IMG/VR virus record: IMGVR_UViG_3300046368_000448 | Span: 1-37,474 of that record | DNA from: a virus | Length of the DNA: 37,474 nucleotides | Reading direction: 5' to 3' (one strand) | Shown: piece after piece, positions 21,732 to 35,878 of the stretch | Layout: every line of letters begins with the position of its first letter | How positions within the stretch are numbered: the first letter of the stretch is position 1 | Notes under the pieces: generated by a model | What the model was told of the DNA's origin: nothing | Seen by the model: the letters and a program-made list of their open reading frames with translations, nothing else | Databases searched by the model: none | Position numbers and translations under genes: made by a program

Positions 21732-21734
21732 TAC

Positions 21735-23288
21735 ATGAATACAGATCTCACAGAAGCACAGAAGGACTATGCAGTATTTTTGCCTAGCATTAGTGGCTTC
21801 TATGCTACTTTTATAGGCAAACAACGTTTCCAAGAGTATGTCGAGCCAGCTAGAATTCCAGTTGGTATCGACAAAATGGAAAGTATGAACTTTTTGAATT
21901 CAAAAGAAGGAGCGTTCCACTACAAATGGGCGCTCTATTCTGCAGGACATGCCGAGCTTGACACTAATAAGTTCAGTGAAAAAGAAGATATGCTACGTAA
22001 GCGTGATAGAGAGAATTCATGGTTACTTGGAGACTCCGGAGGCTTCCAGATTGCTAAAGGCTTATGGCCAGGTGATTGGACTAATCCAGATTGTCCACTG
22101 GCTGCAAAGAAACGTGAGCTAGTTGTAAACTGGATGGAAGAATATATGGATTACGGCATGATGCTCGATATTCCAACATGGACATTCCAAGACAAAAAAG
22201 CAGCAGATGCAGCAAATATTCATAGCTATCAAGATGCTGTTGATGCAACACATATTAATGCACGTTATTACATGGATAATAGACGTGGTAACTTTAAAGT
22301 ACTCAACGTATTACAAGGCAGTACTCATACTGATGCTGATAGTTGGTACGAAGAGTTTAAGGACTATTGTGATCCAGCAAAATACCCAGACACACACTTT
22401 AACGGGTGGGCAATGGGCGGACAAAACATGTGTGATGTGCATCTTATCTTAAGGCGCCTTGTGCATATGATACACGATGGCTTGCTAGAAGAAGGATTGC
22501 ATGATGTAATGCACTTCCTGGGTACTAGTAAGTTAGAATGGGCTGTATTACTTACAGACATTCAACGTGCAGTACGTAAATATCATAACAAAAACTTTAT
22601 GATTACATACGACTGTGCATCTCCGTTTCTTGCTACAGCAAACGGACAGATTTATCACAGTATCCGCATCGAAGATCGTGGCAAATGGAGTTACATGATG
22701 GCTCCGGGTGCCGATTCATTGAAGTATGCTACAGATAAACGCAAGTTTAGTGATGCAGTTATAACTGACAACATACTAGATGCATTTGAAGACTCTCCTA
22801 TTAGCAAACATTGCAAGATGAATGATATCTGTATCTATGCAGAAGGTGATAAAAACAAAGTCGGTACTATAAAAGTAAAAGCAGGTGATGTTGACTTAGA
22901 TAAAGAAGGCAATCCTCTACTAGATGCTGATGGTAATACTACTGTGCGTAAAAAAGATAGCACCAGTTGGGATAGCTTTAGCTATGCACTACAAATGGGC
23001 CATAATGTCTGGATGCACATCGAAAGTACACAACGTGCAAACAGAGAATACGACAATGGCAAGTTTCCGTACATGCTAATTAACGATACTGACTTCCAAA
23101 AGTATGGTGTAGTTAAGTTTAAAGAAATAGTAGACGAAATCTTTAGCTTAAAAGATCGAGAAAAAAGTTTAAAACTTATTGAAGACTTTGATCGCTATTG
23201 GATGCACGTAATCGGAACACGTCTAAATATTGGCAAGAAGGCTGTTAATGCACAAACTAAATTTAACGAATTATGGGAGTATAAATGA
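21735..23288 (+). CDS. dpdA-like: DpdA-like tRNA-guanine-transglycosylase family protein
   Basis: This 517-aa protein has TGT-fold landmarks: LLGDSGGFQ (Asp100, the substrate-binding Asp of TGT), NVLQGS (191-196, like VQGG), NGWAMGGQ (223-230, like GYAIGG), FLGTSKLEW and MITYDCASPF (289-298), whose Asp293 is where TGT has its nucleophile. It is longer than tRNA TGT and resembles phage DpdA proteins, which exchange guanine for a 7-deazaguanine in DNA. It follows the clamp gene by 3 bases. FolE, QueE, QueD-like and YhhQ-like genes in the same window support the DNA-modification reading. Specificity for DNA rather than tRNA is inferred. Confidence 0.8.
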   Translation: MNTDLTEAQKDYAVFLPSISGFYATFIGKQRFQEYVEPARIPVGIDKMESMNFLNSKEGAFHYKWALYSAGHAELDTNKFSEKEDMLRKRDRENSWLLGDSGGFQIAKGLWPGDWTNPDCPLAAKKRELVVNWMEEYMDYGMMLDIPTWTFQDKKAADAANIHSYQDAVDATHINARYYMDNRRGNFKVLNVLQGSTHTDADSWYEEFKDYCDPAKYPDTHFNGWAMGGQNMCDVHLILRRLVHMIHDGLLEEGLHDVMHFLGTSKLEWAVLLTDIQRAVRKYHNKNFMITYDCASPFLATANGQIYHSIRIEDRGKWSYMMAPGADSLKYATDKRKFSDAVITDNILDAFEDSPISKHCKMNDICIYAEGDKNKVGTIKVKAGDVDLDKEGNPLLDADGNTTVRKKDSTSWDSFSYALQMGHNVWMHIESTQRANREYDNGKFPYMLINDTDFQKYGVVKFKEIVDEIFSLKDREKSLKLIEDFDRYWMHVIGTRLNIGKKAVNAQTKFNELWEYK

Positions 23289-23497
23289 CAAGTCTCGAAG
23301 GATTAACTGCATATCTAGCAGAGCTTACAAAAAAACATAGAGCATTAGACGAAAAAATTATAGAACTAGAAAAAAGACTTTATGTAGATCAAGAAGTAAG
23401 AACTTTAAAAACACAAAAGTTGTTCTACAAGGACGAACTACATCGAATACAGAATAAAATAAATGCAATGGAGAATGGAGTAAATGGATCCAAATGA
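23285..23497 (+). CDS. Small coiled-coil protein
   Basis: This 70-aa protein is nearly all heptad-like charged helix (LEGLTAYLAELTKKH, KIIELEKRLYVDQEVRTL, KDELHRIQNKINAMENG). It overlaps the DpdA-like stop as ATGA. It resembles small helical accessory proteins that are common in phages, with no assigned function. It might be an accessory of the DpdA-like protein, but only adjacency supports that. Confidence 0.65.
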   Translation: MTSLEGLTAYLAELTKKHRALDEKIIELEKRLYVDQEVRTLKTQKLFYKDELHRIQNKINAMENGVNGSK

Positions 23498-23657
23498 GAA
23501 AAAAGTTCGTTTAGAAACAATTGAAATGGCACTAGAAGATATCGAAACTATCATTGCTAACATGGAAGAAAAAAACTACCCTAAAAAAGAAATCAACGAA
23601 TACTATAAAAAACGTTGGGATCTTTGGCAAGAACAATATAAAACGAGGAAATCATGA
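23484..23657 (+). CDS. Small hypothetical protein (57 aa)
   Basis: The ATG at 23484 lies 14 bases inside the previous gene with GGAGTAAATGG context, and the stop at 23655-23657 overlaps the next ATG as ATGA. The 57 residues (MDPNEKKVRLETIEMALEDI...) are helical and highly charged, ending YKTRKS. It fills an otherwise gene-free stretch of about 150 bases. Function unknown. Confidence 0.6.
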   Translation: MDPNEKKVRLETIEMALEDIETIIANMEEKNYPKKEINEYYKKRWDLWQEQYKTRKS

Positions 23658-24181
23658 AAAGAGTTTACGATCAAGGAACCGATATCGAAAGTGTTCAATA
23701 TTTTGTTGGAACAGAAGTTGAACATACACCACAGTTTGGAAAGAAAACACTATTCGTTGTAGGTGCCATGGATCCAGACGAAGTAATAGCCATGGCTGAA
23801 ATGCAAGGATGTAAACATATCTACTGTGGTGCTAATATGAGTTTCAATGTCACTAGCAATACAGAAAGCGAATGGAAACCTTGGGAAGCTATGATATTTC
23901 CATTATTGAAAGAAGGCTATTGGGTCACACTAGATGCTGATGCAAGCCAAATTGAAGGGTTGCTAGAAAGTGGATTCACAGAACACAACCGCTTTATTCC
24001 AATGATTAGCGTAAAACTTCCGTATATCGATCAACTTGGATATAATGCTTGTTTAAAAATTGACGATAAAGACTTTGATGCAAGTAACCCTGGTGTATGG
24101 GTTCATAGACTACATGATTTAAAAGAGAAGGCTGTTTTTACAGACTGGTCTAAATACACTACAGACACAATTATCACTTGA
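23654..24181 (+). CDS. Hypothetical protein next to deazaguanine genes
   Basis: This 175-aa protein has strands such as KKTLFVVGAMDPDEVIAMAE (about residues 30-49), HIYCGANMSF, EGYWVTLDADAS and NRFIPMISVKLPYIDQLGYN, and ends LHDLKEKAVFTDWSKY. The alternating pattern suggests an alpha/beta fold, and conserved-looking DADAS and KIDDKDFDASNPG patches could be metal or phosphate sites, but I do not recognise the family. It sits between the DpdA-like and QueD-like genes. It starts with an ATGA junction, and its TGA is inside the next -35 box. Confidence 0.72.
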   Translation: MKRVYDQGTDIESVQYFVGTEVEHTPQFGKKTLFVVGAMDPDEVIAMAEMQGCKHIYCGANMSFNVTSNTESEWKPWEAMIFPLLKEGYWVTLDADASQIEGLLESGFTEHNRFIPMISVKLPYIDQLGYNACLKIDDKDFDASNPGVWVHRLHDLKEKAVFTDWSKYTTDTIIT

Positions 24182-24206
24182 CAATATGCAACAAGAACGT
24201 TATTAT
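24178..24206 (+). promoter_or_regulatory. Sigma70-like promoter upstream of the QueD-like gene
   Basis: TTGACA at 24178-24183, a 17-base spacer, TATTAT at 24201-24206. The upstream TGA stop is at 24179-24181. Transcription would begin near 24213, downstream of the in-frame ATG at 24186, which argues that the next gene really starts later (24225 or 24246). Confidence 0.75.
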
Positions 24207-24245
24207 ACATATATGCAACGGCGCATGAGAGAAGAGGACGCTAAA

Positions 24246-24638
24246 ATGGCAAACGCACTAGAAAACGCAAAACGTAGTATTTGGGTAACCTTTACTAAAG
24301 AAGGTATTCACAAATATCCAGCAGCACTCGACGATCCTGCGCTGGCAACAGGTGACGAATACGATGTAAGTTTCTTAGGATACCCACATCGACATACGTT
24401 TCACTTTAAAGTACAAATTCAAGTAACACACAACGATAGAGACATTGAATTTATTCAATTCAAACGTTGGTTAGAGAATCTTTATAAAGAAGATATTCTC
24501 GAACTAGATTACAAGTCATGCGAAATGATTGCGGATGATTTGTATCTACACATCAACAACAAATACCCCAGCCGGTTTGTTGTTATTGATGTTGCCGAAG
24601 ATGGCGAAAACGGCTGTCAAATTGTTTACCCAGCATAA
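24246..24638 (+). CDS. queD-like: QueD/6-pyruvoyl-tetrahydropterin-synthase-like protein
   Basis: From the ATG at 24246 (preceded by GAGAAGAGG) the product is 130 aa, the size of QueD. The order of motifs fits the 6-PTPS fold. EGIHKYP has a His where QueD has its first zinc ligand. YPHRHTFHFKVQIQV matches the HxH strand. DIEFIQFKRWLENL corresponds to the DFxxLK region, SCEMIADDL to the TxExLA helix, and VAEDGENGCQIVY to the final vxEtxxxxaxY strand. The catalytic Cys that QueD has between the first His and HxH is not seen, so it may be a binding or altered-activity paralog. It would act between FolE and QueE. Confidence 0.6.
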   Translation: MANALENAKRSIWVTFTKEGIHKYPAALDDPALATGDEYDVSFLGYPHRHTFHFKVQIQVTHNDRDIEFIQFKRWLENLYKEDILELDYKSCEMIADDLYLHINNKYPSRFVVIDVAEDGENGCQIVYPA

Positions 24639-24651
24639 AGGAATAAGGTAA

Positions 24652-24852
24652 ATGAATATCACATTTAATCGTGATGCGTATCAGAAAGTATTCAACGATC
24701 TGGACGAATTCCGCGACTACTGTCGCTTTGAAGGTAAAGTGTATGATGAAAAGTCACTTTATAAAAAATCTGACCCTGTATGGCAGGCGTATCAGAAGTA
24801 TCAAAATTACTTACGTGCAAAAGCACGTGGTGGTAAACCTCGGAGACGCTAA
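24652..24852 (+). CDS. Small hypothetical protein with basic tail
   Basis: This 66-aa protein starts MNITFNRDAYQKVFNDLDEF, has aromatic-rich helices (YCRFEG, WQAYQKYQNYLRAKARG) and ends in a basic tail (GGKPRRR). AAGGAATAAGG precedes the ATG. Its last base is the first base of the next ATG (TAATG). It could be a small nucleic-acid-binding accessory, but no family is recognised. Confidence 0.65.
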   Translation: MNITFNRDAYQKVFNDLDEFRDYCRFEGKVYDEKSLYKKSDPVWQAYQKYQNYLRAKARGGKPRRR

Positions 24853-26018
24853 TGCGTAAACTATTTTATATGGGCTTAGAGCCATATGAAGGACGTTATA
24901 CACTCCAGTTGCAAGACTGGAGTGAACGTGCTTTCAAAAGACGTGGTATTGACTATGTAGTTGTACCTGGTACAACAATTGATGACACTAAATCTATTAG
25001 TGTTGGACAAGTTCTTGATGCACACGGACGTAGTTACTTTGCTATGTCGCAGATGATGAACTTGGTGCAAATGATGCGCAACGGCGAAGTAACAGCTGAA
25101 GACGTTATTTTCTTTGAAGATATGTTTCAGCCTGGTATGGAGTCATTGCCGTACATTATGGATCAAATTCCAGCAACCCAACAGCCAAAGGTGTTTATTA
25201 GATGCCTTGCACAAGCTGTAGACCCAGATGACTTTGTTCATGTATGGGGTATGGGTAAATGGATGAGTTTGTACGAAGAAATGTGCAACGAATTTGTTAC
25301 AGGAGTATTAGCAAGTAATGAAGAAATGATTGCTAATATGAAAGTAGCTAATTGGAAGGCGCCGCTCTACAATATTAGTGGATTAGCCTTTGACAAAAGA
25401 GAAGTTGTACAACGATCCGGCGAAGCACCAACGTTTTGGGAGTCACGTAGCAACCGTGTTGTGTTTGCAGCACGTTGGGATCAAGAAAAACAACCTGATT
25501 TTTATATGGATCTTGCTGAGAAGTATGCAGACACAAATGTTGAGTTTGCTGTACTACAAGGCGGTCCTTTACGTAGTAATAATCCTAAGTATATTGAACG
25601 TGCAAACGACTTAGTAAGCAAAGGTGTACTAAGGATTTATGAAAATCTTAAAAAAGAAGAATATTACCATATTGTCAACGATAGTAAAGTATTGTTTAAC
25701 TGTGCTTTACAAGACTGGACAAGTAATACTGTAAGCGAAGCTGATGCATTAGGTTGTAATGTATTATTTCCTGCTTATAGAAGTTTCCCTGAAATCTTTT
25801 CCAACTGTCATGAGCGTATGTATATACCTTGGAGTGTTGAAGATGCAGGAAACAAACTTGACAAGTTACTAGAAGGCCCACACAAAGATATGGGAAAAAT
25901 TAGTGACTGGACAAGTGCTACTATTGATCGTTACATTGATATTATGCAAGGTAACGGAGAACAATGGAAGCGAGATGATAATCGTTATAGAGATCATGTA
26001 GCGGTTAACAAGTATTAG
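24852..26018 (+). CDS. GT-B glycosyltransferase (GT4-like)
   Basis: This 388-aa protein has the C-terminal features of a GT-B enzyme: NRVVFAARWDQEKQPDFYMDL (about 195-215, the family's aR-d-eKgp pattern), VEFAVLQGG, LRIYENLKKEEYYHIVNDSKV and NCALQDWTSNTVSEADALGCNVLFP (the E-x7-E-like sugar-nucleotide region). The N-terminal half (LFYMGLEPYEGRYTLQLQ...) would bind the acceptor. It lies between deazaguanine-related genes and a GalE-like gene that could supply UDP-sugar. Acceptors could be a modified DNA base, a virion protein or a cell-surface glycan; the sequence does not decide. Confidence 0.75.
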   Translation: MRKLFYMGLEPYEGRYTLQLQDWSERAFKRRGIDYVVVPGTTIDDTKSISVGQVLDAHGRSYFAMSQMMNLVQMMRNGEVTAEDVIFFEDMFQPGMESLPYIMDQIPATQQPKVFIRCLAQAVDPDDFVHVWGMGKWMSLYEEMCNEFVTGVLASNEEMIANMKVANWKAPLYNISGLAFDKREVVQRSGEAPTFWESRSNRVVFAARWDQEKQPDFYMDLAEKYADTNVEFAVLQGGPLRSNNPKYIERANDLVSKGVLRIYENLKKEEYYHIVNDSKVLFNCALQDWTSNTVSEADALGCNVLFPAYRSFPEIFSNCHERMYIPWSVEDAGNKLDKLLEGPHKDMGKISDWTSATIDRYIDIMQGNGEQWKRDDNRYRDHVAVNKY

Positions 26019-26035
26019 ACAAGAAGGAGAAATAA

Positions 26036-26635
26036 TTGTTTAAAGATATTGATAAAAGTATGATGATTAAACTTGCGCTGTTGCATGTTATCGTCGTTGT
26101 AGTAAGTAATGCTTTAGTTAGTATTCCAGTTGAATTTTTTGGAGTAAAACTAACCTGGGCTGCATTTACATTCCCGATTGTTGTTCTTGCAACCGATCTT
26201 ACTGTGCGTATGCTAGGTAAGAATATTGCACGAGCAACTATCGCAGCAGCCTATCCGCTTGCTATCATTGGTAGTATTGCAGTAGTATTGCTAGAAGGTG
26301 CACCGCAGAGTGTTGCACTACGTATTGGCTTTGCAAGTGCTACAGCATATGCAGTTGGTACAATGCTAGACGTATATGTATTCCAATACTTGCGTGAAAA
26401 GTATCGTGCATGGTGGTTAGCACCAGCGTTGTCAACTGTAGTTGCAAACGTAATTGATAGTTACACATTCTTCTTTGTTGCGTTTAACAACTCAGCAGAC
26501 GAGTATATGGCAGCAAACTGGATGGAGATTGCAGGATCACAAACTGTACTAAAGATTGCAGTAGGTTTGATTATCTTCTTACCAGCATATGGATTGCTAT
26601 TAAAAGCATTATCCGGAAAGTTGCGAGAGCAATAA
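26036..26635 (+). CDS. yhhQ: YhhQ-like queuosine-precursor (preQ0) transporter
   Basis: This 199-aa integral membrane protein belongs to the VUT/DUF165 family. The signature IPVEFFGVKLTWAAFTFPIVVLATDLTVRMLGK (split between about residues 30-62) corresponds closely to the YhhQ pattern of a TWaaFtFP strand followed by ATDLTVR. Other membrane segments are AYPLAIIGSIAVVLL, FASATAYAVGTMLDVYVF, WLAPALSTVVANVIDSYTFF and a final hydrophobic helix. Known YhhQ imports preQ0/preQ1 in bacteria. The start is TTG at 26036 with AGAAGGAGA seven bases before it. In a phage it would load the infected cell with deazaguanine precursors for the DpdA-like enzyme. Confidence 0.88.
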   Translation: MFKDIDKSMMIKLALLHVIVVVVSNALVSIPVEFFGVKLTWAAFTFPIVVLATDLTVRMLGKNIARATIAAAYPLAIIGSIAVVLLEGAPQSVALRIGFASATAYAVGTMLDVYVFQYLREKYRAWWLAPALSTVVANVIDSYTFFFVAFNNSADEYMAANWMEIAGSQTVLKIAVGLIIFLPAYGLLLKALSGKLREQ

Positions 26636-27511
26636 ATGAAAGTATTAGTTACAGGTGCAAGCGGTTACATTGGTAGCCATGTATGCAAATTACTTAAAGA
26701 AAAAGGTCATAAAGTTATAGGTTGGGATACAGAAATCCACGGCGAAACTAATGATGTTAAGGAATTCTGTGACGAGTATTATAACGTAGACGTTACTGGT
26801 CAATATGCCGGTGGCGTCTACGATGCTATTGTACACCTTGCAGGACGCAGTGTAGTGCCTGATAGTTTAAAAGAACCAGCAGAGTATTATAGAGTAAATG
26901 TAGGCGGTACAGCAAACTTACTATCAATGACAACAACACCACATGTAATTTTTGCTAGTACAAGTAGTGCGTGGGAAATGGCATCACCTTATGCTCGCAG
27001 TAAAGTGGCAGCAGAAGATGTAATTAAGGAGAAAGCAGATGGATACACCATCTTTAGATTTTTTAACGTATCTGGTACTGACGGTGTTCATCGTCAATTG
27101 GGTGCTCCTACCCATCTTATTCGTGTCGCTGCTATGGTGGCTAGTGAAAAGATACCAGACCTTAAGATCTTTGGTACGGACTATGATACTAGGGATGGCA
27201 CTTGCATTCGTGATTATATTCACGTTGTTGATTTGGCTGGCGCCATTGTCACAGCCGTGGAACGAGGCCCCGCAAATACGCCATATGAATGTTTAGGCAG
27301 TAATGTAGGATATAGTGTTAGAGAAGTTATTGACACTATGCAAAAAGTAACTGGTAAACAATTAAATATTATAGAAGCACCTCGTAGAGAAGGAGATGCT
27401 GTGAGCAGTGTTGTAGATACTCTTAGCGAGCATGTTACACTTACAAAAACAATAGAGGAAATGTGCAATGACCAGTACGAACTGGAACTTAGAAGACACA
27501 ATCACAATTGA
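26636..27511 (+). CDS. galE-like: NAD-dependent epimerase/dehydratase (GalE-like)
   Basis: This 291-aa short-chain dehydrogenase has TGASGYIG (6-13, NAD-binding), VHLAGRSVVPDSL, the catalytic Ser/Thr region FASTSSAWE, YARSK (Tyr119, Lys123) and the GalE-type RDGTCIRDYIHVVDLAGA motif. It is somewhat shorter than E. coli GalE (338 aa), mostly from loops. The likely reaction is UDP-glucose/UDP-galactose (or GlcNAc/GalNAc) interconversion. It starts one base after the transporter stop (TAAATG) and its 3' end overlaps the next gene by 44 bases. It may supply sugar donors to the glycosyltransferases at 24852 or 12743-14766. Confidence 0.9.
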   Translation: MKVLVTGASGYIGSHVCKLLKEKGHKVIGWDTEIHGETNDVKEFCDEYYNVDVTGQYAGGVYDAIVHLAGRSVVPDSLKEPAEYYRVNVGGTANLLSMTTTPHVIFASTSSAWEMASPYARSKVAAEDVIKEKADGYTIFRFFNVSGTDGVHRQLGAPTHLIRVAAMVASEKIPDLKIFGTDYDTRDGTCIRDYIHVVDLAGAIVTAVERGPANTPYECLGSNVGYSVREVIDTMQKVTGKQLNIIEAPRREGDAVSSVVDTLSEHVTLTKTIEEMCNDQYELELRRHNHN

Positions 27512-27824
27512 TACTAGTATTGACGAGGATTTAACATTTGATGTGTCAGACATTACTATAAGTAGTATCGATACTAGCAGCATTGATACTATTACAATCG
27601 ATACAACAAGTACTATCACACTCGAAGATACACATTGGGCTGACAATATTACCTGGGAACAAACTGAGTTTGTAGATACAATGCCTAGCATTGATAAAAT
27701 ACATAACATGGTTGGATATTACCCAGCTTTAGAAAAAGCATACGAAAATTTTAAAACAATTTACAAAATGGTAGAGCAAGACTATAAAGGAAATCACCAA
27801 GAAAATGATGAAACTCCATTCTAG
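27468..27824 (+). CDS. Repeat-rich Ile/Thr/Asp protein
   Basis: This 118-aa protein has two parts. Residues about 8-55 are a low-complexity series of short units built on I-T/D-I-D-T (TITIDTSID, DITISSIDTSSID, TITIDTTSTITLEDT), as in beta-solenoid segments of tail fibres or in repetitive precursor peptides. Residues about 70-108 form a helical module (DTMPSIDKIHNMVGYYPALE, then KAYENFKTIYKMVEQDYKG) that I recall as a C-terminal module of uncharacterised phage proteins. It is very acidic and overlaps both neighbours, the GalE-like gene and a radical SAM gene. It could be a virion protein or a substrate of the adjacent enzymes; neither is shown. Confidence 0.7.
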   Translation: MTSTNWNLEDTITIDTSIDEDLTFDVSDITISSIDTSSIDTITIDTTSTITLEDTHWADNITWEQTEFVDTMPSIDKIHNMVGYYPALEKAYENFKTIYKMVEQDYKGNHQENDETPF

Positions 27825-28740: not shown

Positions 28741-29351
28741 TGGACATGCGCAGTTACGAAGAATGGAAACAACACGGTGCTGAAGAAAGTTCAGTAGACG
28801 AAGTTACATGGAGCAAAAACGATCTACTAACACTGGATTGGGAAGCTACACATATGACAGATGAAATCCCAGAAGATAGTAGTTGGGATACATTTGCTAC
28901 AAAAAATAAAAAAGCATTAGAAGCAATGTACAAACAATGGAAAGTACCAAAAGAAGGTAGTTTACATTATATGTGTATTAGACCTGAGCTTACAAAAGGT
29001 TTAACTAGTGTTATTGTACCTTATGCACATATGAAATTTAACTATAACTTTTTAAAACTAACACCCGGATGCAGTTTAATGTGGCACTTTGACACATATG
29101 CTACATTTGTAAAATTTAATAATATCACAGAGGATCAAGCAGACGATATATGTCGCACTGTTACTATGATGTCGGATTGGGATAGAGGACAAGTGTTACA
29201 AGTTGGCGACGAAGTATATACACACTGGCAAGCAGGTGATACATATACGTGGAAAGGCGATACATGGCACGGAATGTCAAACTTTGGTCCAAGTGAATGT
29301 ATTGTTTCGCAAATAACATTTTTGGACGAAGATGACAAATATACCCAATGA
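28737..29351 (+). CDS. 2OG/Fe(II)-oxygenase-like protein
   Basis: This 204-aa protein has an HxD motif in LMWHFDTY (His117, Asp119) and a distal His178 in GDTWHGMSNFG, with WDRGQVLQVGDEVYTHWQAGDTYTW between them. This is the layout of cupin-fold 2-oxoglutarate/Fe(II) or aspartyl-hydroxylase-like enzymes (PGxxLxxHxD ... GD ... WHgxxNxG). The N-terminal 80 residues are acidic and unrecognised. The ATG at 28737 has GAAAGGAGA upstream and overlaps the radical SAM stop. It is the same family type as the gene at 12243 but clearly diverged, and again directly follows a radical SAM gene. Confidence 0.72.
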   Translation: MMDMRSYEEWKQHGAEESSVDEVTWSKNDLLTLDWEATHMTDEIPEDSSWDTFATKNKKALEAMYKQWKVPKEGSLHYMCIRPELTKGLTSVIVPYAHMKFNYNFLKLTPGCSLMWHFDTYATFVKFNNITEDQADDICRTVTMMSDWDRGQVLQVGDEVYTHWQAGDTYTWKGDTWHGMSNFGPSECIVSQITFLDEDDKYTQ

Positions 29352-30234
29352 TAAAAGACATATGGATTTTGGAAGTGCTTTTGCAATAAGCGATCCAGAA
29401 ACTACAAAACTTTTACGTAATACATTAGATCTACAATGTCTCAATAATGACAACATTATTGACGAATTTTTGTATGACTACGACAAATGGATTAAAAAAT
29501 CAACAGTTAATAGTATTACAGGGTTAGAAGATTTTAAATACAAATGCTATAGCAACGGAACAACCGAATCATTTGATAAATTTTATATGAAAAATTCTAA
29601 AAGACGCTTCCGCTGTTTTAAAGGCGAGTATATGTATCATAAACTTGCTTGGAGAGACAAATATGTTTGGGCATATTTAGAAGATGAACCGTTGCACAAA
29701 GCAGATGCAGTAGTAATTAGTCTACCATTTGCAGATACAGGCGACAAGCACTCTAAGTATCATGAACTTATGCGTGAGTGCTGTGAGCTTGGAATACCAG
29801 TACTGGTAGATTGTGCATATTTTGGTGCTTGTTACGGCGTATCAATTGATATTGCATATAATTGTATAACTGATGTAACTTTTAGCCTTAGTAAAAGTTT
29901 TCCAGTAGCATATGCACGTATTGGTATAAGATATACTAAAGTCGATGACGACGATACTATGTTTGTATACCATAAAATTTCATATAACAACAAACTAGGT
30001 GCAGCATTAGGCATAAAGTATCTTGAAAACTTTACACCCGACTACATACCACAAAAATATATACAAAAACAAAAAGAATTTTGTAATGAGCTAGGAATAA
30101 ATCCAAGTGCGACAGTAATTTTTGGTATAGATGATAAAAATATATATAACCAATATAATCGCGGCGGAAATACAAATAGATTAAGTTTCCATAAACAGTA
30201 TATAAAAGGATTAAATTTTGCCAGTACAGAGTAA
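29332..30234 (+). CDS. PLP-dependent aminotransferase-like protein
   Basis: This 300-aa protein looks like a shortened fold-type I PLP enzyme. CYSNGTTESF (72-81) fits the cofactor phosphate loop. ADAVVISLPFADTG precedes GIPVLVDCAYFGA, whose Asp160 would contact the pyridine nitrogen. TFSLSKSFPVAYARIGIRY has Lys188 in the S-x-SK-x-F-x7-R-G context of the Schiff-base lysine. Typical class I/II aminotransferases are about 400 residues, so the small domain is reduced. Its start overlaps the oxygenase gene by 20 bases and the amidinotransferase overlaps its end by 17. The likely role is amine transfer to an unknown keto compound. Confidence 0.72.
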   Translation: MTNIPNDKRHMDFGSAFAISDPETTKLLRNTLDLQCLNNDNIIDEFLYDYDKWIKKSTVNSITGLEDFKYKCYSNGTTESFDKFYMKNSKRRFRCFKGEYMYHKLAWRDKYVWAYLEDEPLHKADAVVISLPFADTGDKHSKYHELMRECCELGIPVLVDCAYFGACYGVSIDIAYNCITDVTFSLSKSFPVAYARIGIRYTKVDDDDTMFVYHKISYNNKLGAALGIKYLENFTPDYIPQKYIQKQKEFCNELGINPSATVIFGIDDKNIYNQYNRGGNTNRLSFHKQYIKGLNFASTE

Positions 30235-31270
30235 CAACGATTGGGATCCATTGCAAGAAATTATCATCGGCACTGCTGATAATTGTGTACATCCTACTAT
30301 GAATAAGAGTACACACAGCTTTATCTACGGTGGTGAAGAAGCAGAAGACATCAAACAGTTTGATGGACAACCTATTGCACAATGGATTGTAGACGAAGCA
30401 AACGAAGACCTTGACGGGCTAGAAAAATGTCTACAAGGACTAGGTGTAAAAACAATGCGTCCAGAGCCTGTAGATCACAACAAAAAGTTTAGCACTCCAG
30501 AGTGGGAAACAACAGGGTGGTATACATTCTGTCCAAGAGATTTGCTGCTGCCGTTGGATAATATGATTATTGAATGTCCAAGCCCTATGCGAGCAAGATA
30601 CTTTGAAACTAGAGCATACTACGAACATTTGTATCGCTGGATGCAAGAAGGTACACAGTGGATCAATGCTCCAAAGCCTATCTTAACAGATGACAACTAT
30701 CAACTAGAAGACAGACGTGATGCTACACTAGTAAACAAAGAGATTATTTTTGATGCACCAAATATTGTTCGTATGGGACGTGACTTGTTGTGCCAAGTAA
30801 GCAACAGTGGCAACCAACTAGGCTTTCAGTGGCTTAAGACTATCTTAGAGCCCAAAGGCTATCGCCTACACGTTGCTGAGAAGTACTATAGCTTTGCACA
30901 CTTTGATAGCACAGTACTGCCGCTACGCCCTGGATTGGTGCTGTTAAACGCAGGCAGACTAAGTGAAGATTGGTACCCACCTATTTTCAAAGACTGGGAC
31001 AAGATTTGGGTAGGCGAAGAAGACCTACACGTACCGCCAGCAAACACAGGTGTTGCTCCGTGTAGCCCGTACATTGGACTTAACTTCCTAAGTGTTAACG
31101 AAGAACTGGTTGTTGTAGATGAAAAACAAGAAGCACTAAGACGTATATTAGGCAAGCACGGCATTGATACTATTGGACTACCTATGCGTCAAGCACGTAG
31201 TATGAGCGGAGGCTTCCACTGTGCTACACTAGATACAAAGCGTAAAGGCACATTGGAGGATTACTTTTAA
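30218..31270 (+). CDS. Glycine/inosamine amidinotransferase-family protein
   Basis: This 350-aa protein resembles arginine:glycine amidinotransferase and its bacterial relatives. Motifs are PRDLLLPLDN, the FDAPNIVRMGRDLLCQVSNSG strand-loop, HFDSTVLPLRPG (His228, of the family's HxD pair), and MSGGFHCATLDTKRKGT with the catalytic Cys335 in the GGGFHCxT context. It would move an amidino group from arginine to an amine, making a guanidino compound. The start is TTG at 30218 with AAAAGGA before it, overlapping the aminotransferase gene by 17 bases. Amidinotransferases occur in marine cyanophages; the acceptor is unknown. The neighbouring PLP enzyme could supply an amine substrate. Confidence 0.88.
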   Translation: MPVQSNNDWDPLQEIIIGTADNCVHPTMNKSTHSFIYGGEEAEDIKQFDGQPIAQWIVDEANEDLDGLEKCLQGLGVKTMRPEPVDHNKKFSTPEWETTGWYTFCPRDLLLPLDNMIIECPSPMRARYFETRAYYEHLYRWMQEGTQWINAPKPILTDDNYQLEDRRDATLVNKEIIFDAPNIVRMGRDLLCQVSNSGNQLGFQWLKTILEPKGYRLHVAEKYYSFAHFDSTVLPLRPGLVLLNAGRLSEDWYPPIFKDWDKIWVGEEDLHVPPANTGVAPCSPYIGLNFLSVNEELVVVDEKQEALRRILGKHGIDTIGLPMRQARSMSGGFHCATLDTKRKGTLEDYF

Positions 31271-31494
31271 TGCTACACACTATTGAAGAACTAATACAAA
31301 GACTCGAAGTTATGAAAGATAAGGCTATCGAACTACATCGTATACGCAATCAATATAGCGAACTAAGTGGTAAAACATACGACAAGACGATTGCAAATGC
31401 ATTACTTGACGATATACAAAGTATGGCAATGTCAATTGCAAATGATCGCGAAGGCGATGAAATAAAAACAGAAATGGATGAATGGAAAAAATGA
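31270..31494 (+). CDS. Small helical hypothetical protein
   Basis: This 74-aa protein is almost entirely charged amphipathic helix (MLHTIEELIQRLEVMKDKAIE..., ANALLDDIQSMAMSIAND). It shares one base with the upstream stop (TAATG), and its stop overlaps the metK ATG as ATGA. No family recognised. Its position suggests co-expression with the amidinotransferase and SAM synthetase. Confidence 0.65.
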   Translation: MLHTIEELIQRLEVMKDKAIELHRIRNQYSELSGKTYDKTIANALLDDIQSMAMSIANDREGDEIKTEMDEWKK

Positions 31495-32582
31495 ACAACT
31501 ATATCTTTACAAGCGAAAGTGTTAGTGACGGACACCCCGATAAAGTAGCAGATCAAATATCTGATGCACTAGTGGATGCCGGGCTTGCTAATGGAGACGA
31601 AACTTCTCGTGTTGCCATTGAAACACTTGTAACCACTAACCATGTAACGTTAGCGGGCGAAGTAAAAAACTTTAATGTCACTAAGGACAAAGTTAAACAA
31701 ATCGTGCGTGACAAAGTTAAAGAGATTGGTTATGAACAAGAAGGGTTTCATTGGGATAATTTGCGTATCTATAATGAGATTCACTCACAAAGTGGTGATA
31801 TTGCACTAGGTACAGACGACTTTGGTGCAGGCGATCAAGGCTTGATGTTTGGCTATGCTTGTAATCATACAGACAGTATGATGCCAGCACCTATTCATTA
31901 CAGTCATGAGATACTAAAGAACTTAAAAGGCAAACGTGGTGCTATACTAGGACCAGATGCTAAAAGTCAGGTAAGCGTCGAGTACTATGGTGCTAGACGT
32001 GACGGTGTGATCAAACGTATTGATCAAGTTGTGATAAGTACACAGCACACAGAAGGCAACGTAGAAGAAGCAAGACATCTTTGTAAACTTGCCGCAATGG
32101 AAGAATTAGGAGACTTAGTTGATGAAAGAACTACATGGCATCTTAACCCTACTGGAAATTTCGTTATTGGTGGTCCTGACGGTGATGCAGGTGTTACTGG
32201 GCGGAAAATTATTGTTGATACTTATGGGGGTTTTGCTCCTCATGGTGGCGGTGCGTTTAGTGGCAAAGATCCAACAAAAGTCGACAGAAGTGCCGCCTAC
32301 ATGGCACGATGGCTCGCCAAGAATGTAGTAGCAGACAATATGGCAGACTGGTGCAATATCCAGTTGAGCTATGCTATTGGTGTTAAAGAACCTACAAGCA
32401 TTTATGTTGATTCGAATGGACACAATGCTAGTATTGCAAAGTTTATTGAACGTGAGATTGACTTGACTCCAAAAGGAATCATTGACAGATTCGATTTATT
32501 CAAGTATAATAACTATAGTAAGAACTGTACATACGGACACTTTGGTAATAAAGATGTTCCTTGGGAAAGGCTCGGTTGGTAA
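31491..32582 (+). CDS. metK: S-adenosylmethionine synthetase
   Basis: From the ATG at 31491 (ATGA overlap; an in-frame ATG at 31482 is the alternative) this is 363 aa, a little shorter than E. coli MetK (384). Signatures present are SDGHPDKVADQISDA, GAGDQGLMFGYAC, GPDAKSQVSVEY, GNFVIGGPDGDAGVTGRKII and GGGAFSGKDPTKVDRSAAY, so the ATP, methionine and metal sites look complete. It makes SAM from Met and ATP. That would feed the two radical SAM proteins, QueE and any phage methyltransferase, and could also serve in Pelagibacter-like hosts with tight sulfur budgets. A consensus promoter lies within its last 100 bases. Confidence 0.97.
   Translation: MNNYIFTSESVSDGHPDKVADQISDALVDAGLANGDETSRVAIETLVTTNHVTLAGEVKNFNVTKDKVKQIVRDKVKEIGYEQEGFHWDNLRIYNEIHSQSGDIALGTDDFGAGDQGLMFGYACNHTDSMMPAPIHYSHEILKNLKGKRGAILGPDAKSQVSVEYYGARRDGVIKRIDQVVISTQHTEGNVEEARHLCKLAAMEELGDLVDERTTWHLNPTGNFVIGGPDGDAGVTGRKIIVDTYGGFAPHGGGAFSGKDPTKVDRSAAYMARWLAKNVVADNMADWCNIQLSYAIGVKEPTSIYVDSNGHNASIAKFIEREIDLTPKGIIDRFDLFKYNNYSKNCTYGHFGNKDVPWERLGW
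32482..32510 (+). promoter_or_regulatory. Consensus sigma70-like promoter inside metK
   Basis: TTGACA at 32482-32487 and TATAAT at 32505-32510 with a 17-base spacer, a perfect consensus match. It ends 72 bases before the next start (32582), so it is placed to drive the small gene and phosphoribosyltransferase downstream. Confidence 0.7.
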
Positions 32583-32764
32583 TGAAAGATCCAAAAGTAG
32601 AACAAATGGTTAAAGAACTAAACACTTTAGTAAACAATATGAATAAATTAAATATTAAATTGTATAAACAAGGCGTGTCATATAGATTAGAAGATGGGTT
32701 TAATGACGAAATAAATGCAAAACACGTCGAAATACAATATTTACAACAAAAAGTAGAGTATTAA
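32582..32764 (+). CDS. Small coiled-coil-like protein (60 aa)
   Basis: The ATG at 32582 shares one base with the metK stop (TAATG). The product (MKDPKVEQMVKELNTLVNNM...) is a charged helix rich in Asn and Lys, ending HVEIQYLQQKVEY. A longer reading from 32561 would run inside metK and is unlikely. Resembles the small helical proteins at 23285 and 31270. Function unknown. Confidence 0.6.
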   Translation: MKDPKVEQMVKELNTLVNNMNKLNIKLYKQGVSYRLEDGFNDEINAKHVEIQYLQQKVEY

Positions 32765-32766
32765 AA

Positions 32767-33285
32767 ATGGTAAAAACATACTATAGTTGGCAAGACGTTA
32801 ATACGGCTGCAACTAATATTGCGTTAAAAATGTATAAAGATGGCTGGAAGCCCGATTATATTGTTGGATTGAATAGAGGTGGATTACCAATTAGTGTAAT
32901 GCTTAGTCATCTGCTCAACTGTAATCATTATGCGCTAGATGTGCGTTTGCGTGACAATGCTACACAAGAATCAAACTGCTGGATGGCCGAAGATGCTTTT
33001 GGATATCACGATGGACAATGCAAACCTAAAATGCGAAAGCAAATACTAATTGTAGATGACATTAACGATACAGGTGCTACGTTCAAATGGATTAGAGAAG
33101 ATTGGCAAAGCGGTTGCTTGCCCAATAGCGAAGGCTGGAATGATGTTTGGAATGACAATGTTCGCTTTGCTACCATGTGTGAAAAGACACATACAAAATT
33201 TGACGGTGTTGATTATTATTGGAAAGAAATTGACACTAGCGAAGAAGATACTTGGATTGTGTTTCCTTGGGAATACGACGAATGA
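32767..33285 (+). CDS. Phosphoribosyltransferase-family protein
   Basis: This 172-aa type I PRTase has the hood/first loop YIVGLNRGGLPISVML (residues 31-46) and the PRPP-binding motif ILIVDDINDTGATF (93-106, with Asp97 and Asp98). The layout is like bacterial Gpt/xanthine or hypoxanthine PRTases, but a Trp-rich insertion (DWQSGCLPNSEGWNDVWND) and the C-terminus (VDYYWKEIDTSEEDTWIVFPWEYDE) resemble a PRTase subfamily in which the base is not known. It could salvage purines for phage DNA or act on a deazapurine. PRPP would come from the prs gene at 20025. It is 2 bases downstream of the previous gene. Confidence 0.88.
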   Translation: MVKTYYSWQDVNTAATNIALKMYKDGWKPDYIVGLNRGGLPISVMLSHLLNCNHYALDVRLRDNATQESNCWMAEDAFGYHDGQCKPKMRKQILIVDDINDTGATFKWIREDWQSGCLPNSEGWNDVWNDNVRFATMCEKTHTKFDGVDYYWKEIDTSEEDTWIVFPWEYDE

Positions 33286-33524
33286 TAGTTGACTGGAGTC
33301 TAAGTGACCTAAAACAAGGCGTAAACAAAATTAGTTTTGCTGAAAGCGATCCTCGAATGGACGGATTTGTTACTTGGGGTTGTAAAAAAGACTTGTATGA
33401 GTTACTATGGCATATCGAAGATGCATTAGATAAATGTAGTACGTATGCTGGTGAAGATCTCTTTGTAAGAGACAGAGAGAAACAACAAACTATAAAAGCA
33501 TTAAAAGGAGAAAACAATGCGTGA
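33282..33524 (+). CDS. Small hypothetical protein (80 aa)
   Basis: From the ATG at 33282 (overlapping the PRTase stop as ATGA) the product is MIVDWSLSDLKQGVNKISFAE... with a central Gly/Cys patch (VTWGCKKDLYELLWHIEDALDKC) and a charged helix near the end. The 33252 start lies inside the PRTase gene and is less likely. It overlaps the next gene by 8 bases. No recognised family. Confidence 0.62.
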   Translation: MIVDWSLSDLKQGVNKISFAESDPRMDGFVTWGCKKDLYELLWHIEDALDKCSTYAGEDLFVRDREKQQTIKALKGENNA

Positions 33525-33717
33525 ACAACTAGTAAAGGCAGCTCGTATGCATGCCGAAGGAGAGCTCGAAAGAGCAAAAACAAACATCTTGGTGTATATG
33601 CATCAAAGTGTTGGTATCGGTGAGCATAGCGATATTGTTGAAGCTATTCAAGAAGAACTTGATAAAATGGCTGCCGCAACAGATCGTATTGAAATGTTAA
33701 ATGAACATTTTAGTTGA
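33517..33717 (+). CDS. Small helical hypothetical protein (66 aa)
   Basis: The ATG at 33517 is preceded by AAAAGGAGAAAAC and overlaps the previous gene by 8 bases. The product (MREQLVKAARMHAEGELERA...) is helical, with a second acidic helix (VEAIQEELDKMAAATDRIEML). Its TGA (33715-33717) is inside the folE promoter -35 box. No family recognised. Confidence 0.65.
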   Translation: MREQLVKAARMHAEGELERAKTNILVYMHQSVGIGEHSDIVEAIQEELDKMAAATDRIEMLNEHFS

Positions 33718-33742
33718 CAAAAGATCTAAATAATGTTACTAT
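33714..33742 (+). promoter_or_regulatory. Sigma70-like promoter of folE
   Basis: TTGACA at 33714-33719, a 17-base spacer, TACTAT at 33737-33742, followed by AAAC. The same -35, spacing and TACTATAAA occur before the DNA polymerase gene. The upstream TGA stop is inside the -35 box. Confidence 0.78.
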
Positions 33743-33748
33743 AAACTA

Positions 33749-33768
33749 TATAGACATCCACGTCTATA
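33749..33768 (+). promoter_or_regulatory. Hairpin at the 5' end of the folE transcript
   Basis: TATAGAC at 33749-33755 pairs perfectly with GTCTATA at 33762-33768 across a 6-base loop (ATCCAC). The predicted transcription start, about 7 bases after the -10, is at or next to the first base of this stem, so the mRNA would begin with a stem-loop just upstream of the CGGAG ribosome site. Such 5' hairpins commonly stabilise mRNA; here the function is inferred. Confidence 0.55.
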
Positions 33769-33781
33769 ACTCGGAGAAAAA

Positions 33782-34465
33782 ATGAGCAAAGCAGAACAAC
33801 TAAAAGCCCGCCTAGATGAACTAGGCATTCGTCACTGGGCAGGCGACAATATTTCACAAGTATTACAAAATGGTGATAAAGAAGAACTTATTGATAATGC
33901 TACTACAGCATTTGAAGGTGTACTAGATGCACTATTGATTGATCGTCATAACGATCCTAACTCACAAGGCACAGCAAGACGTCTTGCTAAAATGTACTTT
34001 AATGAAATTATGGCAGGACGTTATGATCCAGCGCCAAGTGCAACAGCATTTCCTAATGATAGCGATGATCGCTATGAAGGTATGTTAGTAGTACGCAGTG
34101 AACTTAAAAGTATGTGTTCGCATCATCACCAGCCAGTAGCAGGTATTGCATACATTGGTATTATTGCCGCTGATAAGTTAATTGGTCTAAGCAAGTACAC
34201 ACGTATTGCACAATGGTGTTCACGTCGTGGCACACTACAGGAAGAACTTGCAAATGATATTGCACGTGAGATCCAAGCCGCAACTGGTGCAGAACATTTA
34301 GGTGTTTATATTCAAGCAACACACGGTTGTTGTGAGAATCGCGGTATTATGGCACATAGTAGTTTAACACAAACTACAGTACTACGTGGCGCATTTAAAG
34401 ATGATGCAGGTACAAAGAAAGAGTTCTTTGATAACATTAAACTACAACAGGAGTTTAGTTGCTAA
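33782..34465 (+). CDS. folE: GTP cyclohydrolase I (FolE)
   Basis: This 227-aa enzyme matches E. coli FolE in length and motifs. The zinc ligands fit SMCSHHHQP (Cys112, His115) and ATHGCCENRG (Cys183 or Cys184, with His181). DKLIGLSKYTRI and SRRGTLQEELANDIA are the conserved substrate-site segments. It converts GTP to dihydroneopterin triphosphate, the first step of both folate and 7-deazaguanine synthesis. Since it is followed directly by queE (one shared base) and a QueD-like gene is nearby, the deazaguanine role is favoured. It has its own promoter and a leader with a 5' hairpin. Confidence 0.95.
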   Translation: MSKAEQLKARLDELGIRHWAGDNISQVLQNGDKEELIDNATTAFEGVLDALLIDRHNDPNSQGTARRLAKMYFNEIMAGRYDPAPSATAFPNDSDDRYEGMLVVRSELKSMCSHHHQPVAGIAYIGIIAADKLIGLSKYTRIAQWCSRRGTLQEELANDIAREIQAATGAEHLGVYIQATHGCCENRGIMAHSSLTQTTVLRGAFKDDAGTKKEFFDNIKLQQEFSC

Positions 34466-35358
34466 TGAAACTTAGATATTCAGAAGCTTTTTATAGCGTA
34501 CAAGGCGAAGGCAAGTTTGTAGGAGTACCCAGTGTATTCCTACGCACCTTCGGTTGTAACTTTCGTTGTATGAACTTTGGCTTAAAGAACGAGCCAATGC
34601 GTGATGTAAAACAAAAAGCAGGCATTATTCACAATGCCGAAGTACAAGGATTACTTGACGCAGGTGTACATGAAACAACTAAAGAATTTACAGACTTGCC
34701 TATTATACACACAGGTTGCGATACATATGCAAGTATCTATCCAGAGTTTAAACACTTTAATCGACAAGCAACTGTGGACGAAGTAGTTGAGCATTTACTT
34801 TCACTTACTCCTAATGGTAAGTGGGTACAGGACAATGGTCAAGATGTACACTTGATCATGACAGGCGGTGAACCGTTGTTAGCGTGGCAACGGCTTTACG
34901 TAGAGCTGTTTGAACATCCACGTATGCAGGATTTAAGGAACATCACATTTGAAACAAACACTACACAACATTTACACGACGATCTCTACAACTATCTCAA
35001 CAACAGCGACAGACTTACAGTCACTTGGAGTTGTTCCCCAAAACTTAGTGTCTCAGGAGAACCTTGGGAAACTGCTATCAAGCCTGATGTTGCTAGTGAG
35101 TATCAGTGCGTTACTGATAGCGAACTTTATCTTAAGTTTGTTGTGGCTACTGAAGACGACTTTGAAGAAGTTAAAAGAGCTGTGGACGCTTACAGAAGTG
35201 CCGGGGTGGAATGTCCGGTATATCTTATGCCAATGGGCGGACGCAGTGAAGAATACACCCTCAACGTTAAAGACGTGGCTGAAGCGTGTATGGCAGAAGG
35301 ATGGCGATTTACCCCAAGACTCCATATCAGCTTATTCGGAAATGCCTGGGGAACTTAG
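34465..35358 (+). CDS. queE: 7-carboxy-7-deazaguanine synthase (QueE), variant cluster loop
   Basis: From the ATG at 34465 (TAATG with folE) the product is 297 aa. The start SEAFYSVQGEGKFVGVPSVF, the GCNFRC motif and IMTGGEPLL identify QueE, the radical SAM enzyme that forms CDG. The usual third cluster Cys of CxxxCxxC is replaced (CNFRCMNF; Cys31, Cys35, then Phe). About 50 residues later a conserved-looking HTGCDTYASIYPEFKHF supplies Cys85. I take this as the variant phage-type QueE with a long insertion between the second and third Cys. The C-terminus (TPRLHISLFGNAWGT) is typical. It is 5' coupled to folE. Confidence 0.9.
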   Translation: MKLRYSEAFYSVQGEGKFVGVPSVFLRTFGCNFRCMNFGLKNEPMRDVKQKAGIIHNAEVQGLLDAGVHETTKEFTDLPIIHTGCDTYASIYPEFKHFNRQATVDEVVEHLLSLTPNGKWVQDNGQDVHLIMTGGEPLLAWQRLYVELFEHPRMQDLRNITFETNTTQHLHDDLYNYLNNSDRLTVTWSCSPKLSVSGEPWETAIKPDVASEYQCVTDSELYLKFVVATEDDFEEVKRAVDAYRSAGVECPVYLMPMGGRSEEYTLNVKDVAEACMAEGWRFTPRLHISLFGNAWGT

Positions 35359-35437
35359 ACAATATAAAAATGCACAACACGAAAAGGCTATGAAGGCGCC
35401 TATCGATCAAGACGCACTTAGAAAGGCAGGTCTATAA
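35342..35437 (+). CDS. Tiny ORF between queE and next gene (31 aa)
   Basis: An ATG at 35342, inside the end of queE, opens a 31-residue frame (MPGELRQYKNAQHEKAMKAP...) that closes with TAA sharing one base with the next ATG. It fills the 78-base gap after queE. No clear ribosome site precedes it, so it may be real or just untranslated leader. Confidence 0.3.
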   Translation: MPGELRQYKNAQHEKAMKAPIDQDALRKAGL

Positions 35438-35817
35438 TGGGATGGTGGAGTAAAAAAGTAAGAGACTTAACAGGCGTTACTGCTAAGGAACAAAAAGAAC
35501 TAGAAGTTATTAAAGTACGTGATCCAAAAGAATATGCAACACGTAAGAAGGAACCTTGGGTAAATGTACTTGATATGCAAGTCAACGGAGACAATATCCG
35601 TAATGGGTTCTTTGAGCTTGATTGGAACAAATACTTTATTCAAGAACTAATACAAAACGGATACGGAGAAGAATCAGATCCCGAAGAAGAAATTGTTGAT
35701 AGATGGTTCCGTGACATTGTGTATAACATGCTACAAGAAGAAGCAGTTGATTCTAAAGTAAACACTGGTTACATTAATGTAGTGCCAATTGATAAAGGCA
35801 AAAGCGAAGTAAGTTAA
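35437..35817 (+). CDS. Conserved hypothetical phage protein
   Basis: This 126-aa protein starts MGWWSKKVRDLTGVTAKEQK and contains DPKEYATRKKEPWVNVLDMQVNG and NIRNGFFELDWNKYFIQEL, then EEIVDRWFRDIVYNML. I recall this arrangement (PWVNVL followed by GFFELDWN) from small proteins of marine T4-like phages, with no function assigned. It ends four bases before the RNase H promoter. The acidic, Trp-rich composition suggests a protein-binding rather than DNA-binding role, but this is a guess. Confidence 0.7.
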   Translation: MGWWSKKVRDLTGVTAKEQKELEVIKVRDPKEYATRKKEPWVNVLDMQVNGDNIRNGFFELDWNKYFIQELIQNGYGEESDPEEEIVDRWFRDIVYNMLQEEAVDSKVNTGYINVVPIDKGKSEVS

Positions 35818-35820
35818 TGC

Positions 35821-35857: not shown

Positions 35858-35878
35858 TAAACAACAATAGGCAAACTA

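Follow-up and report, generated by a model that had tools for sequence, protein, structure and literature searches.

A QueD-fold protein family that probably takes the place of QueC in a phage 7-deazaguanine DNA-modification pathway

Gene content of the locus

The IMG/VR record IMGVR_UViG_3300046368_000448, a linear stretch of 37,474 bases from a phage described as marine, carries a group of genes (Table 1) suggestive of a pathway that places a 7-deazaguanine in phage DNA; the whole of this stretch is called the window below. Our main subject is the gene at 24186, whose product, here termed QueDl, is predicted to be a QueD-fold paralogue. On our best reading it stands where QueC would be expected, at the point where the pathway would branch from 7-carboxy-7-deazaguanine (CDG). 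A sequence-only reading had earlier assigned five open reading frames (ORFs) to such a pathway. All five are present at the places it gave, and its DpdA/TGT-like enzyme (21735), YhhQ (26036), FolE (33782) and QueE (34465) are borne out, whereas its 'QueD' (start given as 24246; 24186 is used here) is the paralogue. The glycosyltransferase-like gene and the gene at 23654, both far more tightly linked to the group than YhhQ, had been passed over.

Table 1. Genes and catalytic motifs of the locus, in window coordinates
Feature	Position	Strand	Basis
DpdA-like DNA guanine transglycosylase (predicted), TGT fold	21735..23288	+	fold and profile link to DpdA2 of Vibrio phage nt-1
First catalytic motif D100-SGGFQ of the DpdA-like protein	22032..22049	+	invariant in 14/14 relatives
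Second catalytic Asp, D293 in ITYDCASPF, of the DpdA-like protein	22611..22613	+	invariant in 14/14 relatives
Unknown 175-aa protein, QueDl-linked	23654..24181	+	77/80 QueDl loci vs 0/80 QueC loci
QueD-fold paralogue QueDl, phrog_17812 (unknown function)	24186..24638	+	AlphaFold 2 (AF2) fold, QueD top match, catalytic Cys lost
Glycosyltransferase-like protein	24852..26018	+	Glycos_transf_1 18.1 bits, below cut-off; conserved neighbour of QueDl
YhhQ-like 7-deazaguanine precursor transporter (accessory)	26036..26635	+	TIGR00697 112 bits, cut-off 50.95
GalE-like nucleotide-sugar epimerase	26636..27511	+	PF01370 E 2e-35; 44/80 QueDl loci vs 1/80 QueC loci
Phosphoribosyltransferase	32767..33285	+	PF00156 45.6 bits; 57/80 QueDl loci vs 4/80 QueC loci
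FolE, GTP cyclohydrolase I	33782..34465	+	PF01227 130.5 bits, above cut-off
QueE, CDG synthase	34459..35358	+	phrog_2076 E 4e-51; start 34465 equally good

Conservation was followed in three sets of 80 IMG/VR loci, seeded by the DpdA-like protein, by QueDl and by QueC, respectively. The QueDl-seeded set holds the 80 top-scoring stretches out of at least 597, most of the 80 being from one marine group; the QueC-seeded set likewise holds the top 80, out of at least 433. Flanks extend to at most 10 kb and the loci are related, so that the counts given here represent neither independent trials nor complete genomes; the DpdA-seeded set includes near-identical loci and shares at least seven contigs, compared by eye, with the QueDl-seeded set. 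A Fisher test (p 2e-47) was not used as evidence since the loci are seed-chosen and kin. In the DpdA-seeded loci the 23654, QueDl and 24852 genes recur in 78, 70 and 69 of 80, respectively, and their grouping in the window is therefore not a matter of chance.

Two further sources were drawn upon. The window is contained, at 99.92% identity, in a contig of 170,115 bases (IMGVR_UViG_3300047378_000694; the 170-kb contig below), and megablast of window positions 20000-37474 revealed no named phage as a near relative. QueDl occurs in 26 GenBank records, from which 11 distinct phages were examined: Cellulophaga phage phiST, Acidovorax phage ACP17, Pseudomonas phage PA5oct, RHph_I1_18, Sinorhizobium phage Phosso, Xanthomonas phage X1, Ahp1, Vibrio phage Bakedbeans, D479, Synechococcus phage BUCT-ZZ01 (ZZ01 below) and Chryseobacterium phage MA9V-3. 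The remaining records are duplicates of ACP17 and phiST, ten other PA5oct-like Pseudomonas phages, and Cellulophaga phages phi13:1 and phi19:2.

QueDl shares the fold of QueD and lacks its catalytic residues

No PTPS model matches the 24186 product, and Pfam, PHROG and NCBIfam yield no functional name for it; weak PHROG matches to QueD are seen in four of 14 family members, the best with an E-value of 0.007. The AF2 model of the product (pLDDT 84.5) has a T-fold, for which the top Foldseek match is E. coli QueD (E 5e-4). Structural comparison using VIA gave Z-scores of 11.3 for PTPS, 10.5 for QueD and 10.0 for QueF-like structures, differences of less than 1 being regarded as ties.

In E. coli QueD (the CPH4 synthase) three His residues bind the metal, a Glu anchors the ligand, and Cys27 and the Asp70-His71 pair are catalytic; these are the roles that we take the residues to have. 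The first group is retained in QueDl: H16, H31, H33 and E110 of the E. coli enzyme have as counterparts H42, H68, H70 and E138, none of which varies among 14 sequences. The second group is lost. Leu stands at the position of Cys27 in all 116 distinct IMG/VR copies, and likewise in all 14 members of a second collection, to which the 11 named phages belong. The alignment offers no counterpart for Asp70-His71, and a DH string within 60 residues of the HxH motif is present in 13 of the 116 copies. For comparison, Cys and DH are both kept in ten of ten canonical QueDs. QueDl has, besides, invariant residues of its own, namely H82, R85, E88 and S111-C112-E113, the S-C-E motif being present in 115 of 116 copies.

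Among the whole records of the 11 named phages PF01242 scores above its cut-off in ten, and nine of these matches have the Cys motif and DH of canonical QueD. The match in Ahp1 is weak (24.9 bits) and without the Cys motif, and D479 has none. Because nine of the phages carry canonical QueD elsewhere in the genome, QueDl is not these phages' QueD. By sequence and predicted structure we take the 24186 product to represent a second QueD-fold family. It shares with QueD the T-fold, the three His that bind the metal and the Glu that anchors the ligand, differs from it in the loss of the catalytic Cys and Asp-His, and is often found in one genome with a genuine QueD; the earlier naming as QueD thus applies to the fold and fails at the catalytic residues. 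In phages Bakedbeans and MA9V-3 QueDl forms the C-terminal part of longer ORFs, of 383 and 293 amino acids, respectively, whose N-terminal parts appear by eye to be mutually unrelated.

QueDl and QueC occupy different loci among those read

None of the 80 QueDl-seeded loci contains QueC and none of the 80 QueC-seeded loci contains QueDl. The QueDl-seeded loci carry window-type DpdA in 76 cases, the 23654 gene in 77, FolE in 61, QueE in 46 and canonical QueD in two; in the QueC-seeded loci QueD and QueE are each present in 49, FolE in 53 and DpdA2, the TGT-fold DpdA of Vibrio phage nt-1 and others, in 23. Nine QueC-seeded loci match the window DpdA profile, of which eight score better as DpdA2 and one, L301, is genuinely window-type. 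This rare locus combines window-type DpdA with QueC, QueD, QueE and FolE, and is without QueDl. Wherever a DpdA-seeded locus has at least 2.6 kb of downstream sequence, QueDl is present (60/60).

Gene order follows the same division. QueC adjoins DpdA2 in phages nt-1 and Ps15 and is one gene away in pf16; the order QueC-DpdA2-QueE of Ps15 may be compared with DpdA2-QueDl-QueE in X1, and in ACP17, too, QueDl lies between DpdA2 and QueE. QueC was not detected in nine of the 11 named QueDl phages, with a partial match below the cut-off in X1 and one above it in D479. The phages in which QueC was recognised, by hidden Markov model (HMM) in 2.275.O, PSTCR7 and Vid5 and by annotation in nt-1, pf16, Ps15 and phi38:2, all lie outside the 26 QueDl records, while the 18.8 kb read from Flavobacterium phage immuto contain neither gene.

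QueC was not found in the window, nor canonical QueC on the 170-kb contig, where the 295-aa ORF at contig position 57260 matches the first 74 positions only of PF06508 (23.2 bits; cut-off 22). A profile built from relatives did detect (E 4e-29) a 231-aa QueC-like ORF at contig 90644-91339, about 45 kb beyond QueE. It has an SGGxDS motif and the zinc cysteines (C...CxxCxxC); P(G/Y)RN, which the aligned QueCs have in common, is missing, and no Pfam model matches. Similar ORFs are seen in the stretches L081, L084 and L086, next to apparent radical-SAM genes. The earlier statement that QueC is absent is thus correct for the window and, as regards canonical QueC, for the contig, with divergent QueC-like ORFs on the contig as a reservation. 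The idea that QueC is missing only because the window is a fragment was rejected, the 170-kb contig being likewise without canonical QueC. These comparisons are best read as displacement of QueC by QueDl rather than its mere absence. Two options had been offered earlier, and since QueC seems to be displaced, not just missing, a CDG-type inserted base fits better than preQ0 imported or supplied by the host.

The DpdA-like enzyme

The 517-residue product of the 21735 ORF, of which 159 IMG/VR relatives were found, matches no Pfam, PHROG or NCBIfam model at E ≤ 0.01. Its AlphaFold model is of modest confidence (pLDDT 61, pTM 0.65), and the top two Foldseek matches in the PDB are a tRNA TGT (E 3e-4) and ArcTGT (E 7e-4). 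VIA-align, which re-examined Foldseek's own match list, gave TGT entries in 50 of the 50 listed rows, with Z-scores of 13.6-14.8, the row with the best Z-score having a root mean square deviation of 5.2 over 305 aligned residues. The active-site Asp pair is present, as D100 and D293 in all 14 aligned relatives. Comparison of family profiles by hhalign linked the protein with the nt-1 type DpdA2 (96.6%, E 6e-10, about 200 columns), placing D100-SGGFQ opposite DSGGLQ and D293 opposite the Asp of ISYDS. The equivalents in E. coli TGT are DSGGFQ and FDCVMP, the latter aligned with the D293 motif in a direct comparison that is itself weak (13.8%); DpdA2 matches E. coli TGT at 89.6%.

Two tblastn searches revealed no link between the 21735 family and DpdA2, and profile comparison with DpdA1 (Vid5, PSTCR7) gave no convincing link. 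From these alignments, a sister relationship to DpdA2 is as likely as membership of that subfamily. The CxCxxC zinc motif of E. coli tRNA TGT is found in none of the 14 relatives and none of six DpdA2s, one such string occurring in a wider set of nine sequences. PF01702 (TGT) has no match in 15 phage records, although Vid5 and X1 carry annotated queuine tRNA-ribosyltransferase genes, and it is therefore unusable as a test for DpdA. When sequence profiles of the DpdA, QueDl and 23654 families were compared with solved structures, no convincing relative emerged. A DNA polymerase gene lies a few genes away in all 80 DpdA-seeded loci. Homology and predicted fold thus concur with the earlier DpdA/TGT-like call, and we regard the product as a DpdA-like enzyme for which the company of genes suggests DNA as the substrate.

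FolE, QueE, QueD and YhhQ

The Pfam and PHROG matches in Table 1 uphold the earlier FolE and QueE assignments. NCBIfam FolE models match the 33782 product below their cut-offs, as do the Pfam Radical_SAM and NCBIfam QueE models the 34459 product. Solved QueE structures match the N-terminus of the latter, in which the cluster cysteines C33-x3-C37 ... C87-DT are invariant in ten of ten sequences and TGGEP is present. A long insertion sets the second and third of these cysteines 49 residues apart, the range across the ten aligned sequences being 42 to 50. No QueD was found on the 170-kb contig with PF01242 or a purpose-built QueD profile; three of eight other long IMG/VR records searched contain canonical QueD with the Cys motif. 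The QueD step in this phage probably comes from the host or from a gene outside the contig.

YhhQ, recognised by TIGR00697, scores 191 bits with NF008406 (cut-off 252). It is present in four of the 80 DpdA-seeded loci, in three of 55 with both flanking genes, and in seven of the 80 QueDl loci. It is an accessory trait here, and its candidacy as a key partner was rejected on the count of three in 55. Nor does the combination of synthesis and import arms in one phage, which had been considered notable, set this phage apart, since the GenBank phages PSTCR7, Vid5 and 2.275.O already combine both.

A glycosyltransferase and other linked neighbours

A profile built from the family of the 24852 product and five homologues beside QueDl in other phages detects the glycosyltransferase-like gene in 80 of 80 QueDl loci and 0 of 80 QueC loci, at no more than 1.5 kb from QueDl in 69 of the 71 loci with enough sequence. 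As a lone query the window protein finds it in only 16 of the 80 QueDl loci, and the 24852 slot therefore holds divergent members. The homologues of X1 and ZZ01 score above the Pfam glycosyltransferase cut-off and those of ACP17 and PA5oct below it; that of Phosso is annotated as a glycosyltransferase and has no such Pfam match. Among these five phages the gene may lie on either side of QueDl. By its linkage the predicted glycosyltransferase belongs to the QueDl module.

The 23654 protein has no convincing relative in Pfam or among solved structures; the 13 GenBank records of its family are all from PA5oct-like phages or ACP17, which also carry QueDl. Of the looser associates in Table 1, the GalE-like protein could possibly supply a donor sugar and the phosphoribosyltransferase could possibly salvage excised guanine. 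The lean of linked genes towards QueDl loci may partly reflect shared ancestry rather than function.

Upstream, window positions 18032-20028 hold cytidylyltransferase-like, PMM-like and UDP-sugar dehydrogenase-like ORFs, present in 73, 65 and 62 of the 80 DpdA-seeded loci, respectively, and 20025-20957 a ribose-phosphate pyrophosphokinase (PF13793), present in six of them. On the 170-kb contig a CxxxCxxC motif occurs in 22 of 180 ORFs, most of them clustered at about 60-117 kb; all nine of those tested score above the Pfam Radical_SAM cut-off and three above that of SPASM. Radical-SAM genes are thus strikingly numerous for a single phage.

Comparison with known systems

The DpdA2 phages, Vibrio phage nt-1 and, by homology, Stenotrophomonas phage Ps15 and Pseudomonas phage pf16, have a DpdA that is distantly homologous to that of the window and shares its two Asp motifs. 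As in the window, a TGT-fold DpdA is clustered with FolE and QueE in large phages (both genes being read in Ps15 and pf16). Unlike the window, all three carry QueC at or one gene from DpdA2, and no QueDl. Closer in content are phiST, ACP17, X1, PA5oct, ZZ01 and Phosso, which share with the window QueDl and QueE and the lack of full-length QueC, with FolE in the stretch read for five of the six. They differ from the 170-kb contig in also carrying canonical QueD, and in gene order; ACP17, X1 and ZZ01 further differ from the window in using DpdA2. Across all 11 named phages, FolE was found by HMM in the stretch read in ten, PA5oct having none there, and QueE in eight, the exceptions being RHph_I1_18, Bakedbeans and D479. 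For PA5oct, a passage of an earlier paper already states that there is a deazaguanine synthesis/incorporation system (PMC7824862).

YhhQ adjoins QueE in Providencia phage PSTCR7 and Pantoea phage Vid5, which also have QueD, FolE and a QueC-family gene, and adjoins QueF and QueC in Vibrio phage 2.275.O; these three differ from the window in their QueC-family genes and in having no QueDl. YhhQ in phages, with no correlation with group, is mentioned in a passage of Hutinet 2019 (PMC6884629).

Of most bearing on our proposal is the 2023 work of Cui et al. in NAR, the abstract of which reportedly describes dDG and dCDG in phages and predicts a CDG decarboxylase, DpdL. The chemistry is that proposed here for the 24186 product. 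To our knowledge no glycosyltransferase features in that work. Among the matches listed in a literature search, outside which most subscription papers lay, titles and the opening parts of abstracts mention neither a link between glycosyltransferases and 7-deazaguanine nor a CDG-decarboxylase enzyme.

A proposed pathway and its alternatives

A 7-deazaguanine DNA-modification pathway in this phage is well supported, a TGT-fold DpdA2 homologue being syntenic with FolE and QueE. The form that we favour, and consider fairly likely, is a modification branching at CDG in which QueDl takes the place of QueC. FolE and QueE would make CDG, with CPH4 supplied by the host, no canonical QueD having been found in this genome. 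QueDl would act on CDG, so that the pathway branches there without preQ0, and its likeliest chemistry would be decarboxylation to 7-deazaguanine, the base being held by the Glu and three His. Decarboxylation is preferred because QueDl sits at QueC's place, on CDG; because guanine-like rings are ligands of T-fold proteins with such an anchoring Glu; and because dDG phages are said to have a predicted CDG decarboxylase, DpdL. DpdA would then swap the resulting base for guanine in phage DNA, and the 24852 glycosyltransferase would most likely decorate it afterwards. The final product would be 7-deazaguanine, CDG or a glycosylated base, and might afford protection against restriction. More tentatively, and as a possibility that we would not call probable, glycosylated 7-deazaguanine may be present in the DNA of an abundant marine group and of distant jumbo or T4-like phages, QueDl making the base, DpdA inserting it and the glycosyltransferase adding the sugar.

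Several observations weigh against the favoured pathway. It is built on sequences and models, from which the chemistry is inferred, and the exclusion and linkage counts come from related, best-scoring loci with flanks of limited length. The profile link of QueDl to phage QueDs is weak (hhalign 56.6%, E 1e-4), and confidence in the DpdA model is low. FolE and QueE are present in 13 and 12, respectively, of the 21 DpdA-seeded loci whose downstream sequence extends to 9.9 kb or more. D479, with QueDl, a partial QueC-family match above the cut-off and no canonical QueD, is an exception to strict exclusion, and the QueC-like ORF of the contig could still make preQ0. As regards the sugar, glycosyltransferases are seen in the stretches read of five of the 11 named phages (ZZ01, X1, ACP17, Phosso and PA5oct), and the window protein itself falls below the Pfam cut-off.

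The alternative that survives best, though we consider it unlikely, is that CDG itself is inserted (dCDG), QueDl binding CDG and handing it to DpdA or shielding it from host QueC without performing chemistry. The exclusion of QueC would look identical, QueDl retains the ligand-anchoring but not the catalytic residues of QueD, and CDG insertion is raised in a passage of Hutinet 2019 for Mycobacterium phage Bipper, which is without QueC alone (PMC6884629). Set against this, the invariant H82, R85, E88 and S111-C112-E113 resemble a new active site more than the marks of a passive binder.

We give distinctly less credence to the idea that QueDl, its active site remodelled, serves as the phage's QueD and that the route is completed by host QueC or by preQ0 brought in from outside, which was the main line of the sequence-only reading. 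It would suit the fold, the lack of canonical QueD on the 170-kb contig and the lack of a clear one in Ahp1 and D479, but it is hard to reconcile with Leu for Cys in 116 of 116 copies, the lost Asp-His pair, and the canonical QueD of nine of 11 named phages and three of eight other long IMG/VR records; exclusion with QueC, moreover, would be unexpected for a QueD. That the ORF at contig 90644-91339 is the missing QueC, the product being ordinary preQ0 or ADG, seems very improbable. Its SGGxDS and C...CxxCxxC motifs are those of a QueC, and in four other long records its relatives reach 18.7-25.4 bits, around the QueC cut-off of 22; against that, it lacks P(G/Y)RN and a Pfam match, lies among radical-SAM genes and not near DpdA, and has a homologue in none of 150 QueDl-holding loci (70 DpdA-seeded and 80 QueDl-seeded, at least seven contigs counting double). 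Hardly to be credited is a tRNA-modifying enzyme that raises host queuosine and leaves DNA unmodified: YhhQ and the pathway genes could conceivably feed it, but hhalign prefers DpdA2 (96.6%) to E. coli TGT (13.8%), CxCxxC is present in 0 of 14 relatives, and a DNA polymerase gene is nearby in 80 of 80 loci.

Implications

For phrog_17812, found in at least 597 IMG/VR stretches, the favoured pathway offers a place and a testable job, and it suggests a route by which phages without QueC still modify guanine. If the 24186 product is DpdL, decarboxylation has already been proposed in print and the novelty lies in the link to a glycosyltransferase and in the marine breadth. The analysis also counsels caution, in that QueD-like phage genes are not all QueD.

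Glycosylated queuosines occur in tRNA, and a glycosylated 7-deazaguanine, if true, would be their counterpart in DNA. The QueDl phages are candidates for carrying an undescribed, perhaps sugar-bearing, guanine analogue in their DNA. Modified bases bear on the escape of phages from restriction and on bias in virome sequencing, the latter having been discussed for a 7-deazaguanine phage in part of an earlier report (PMC11515303).

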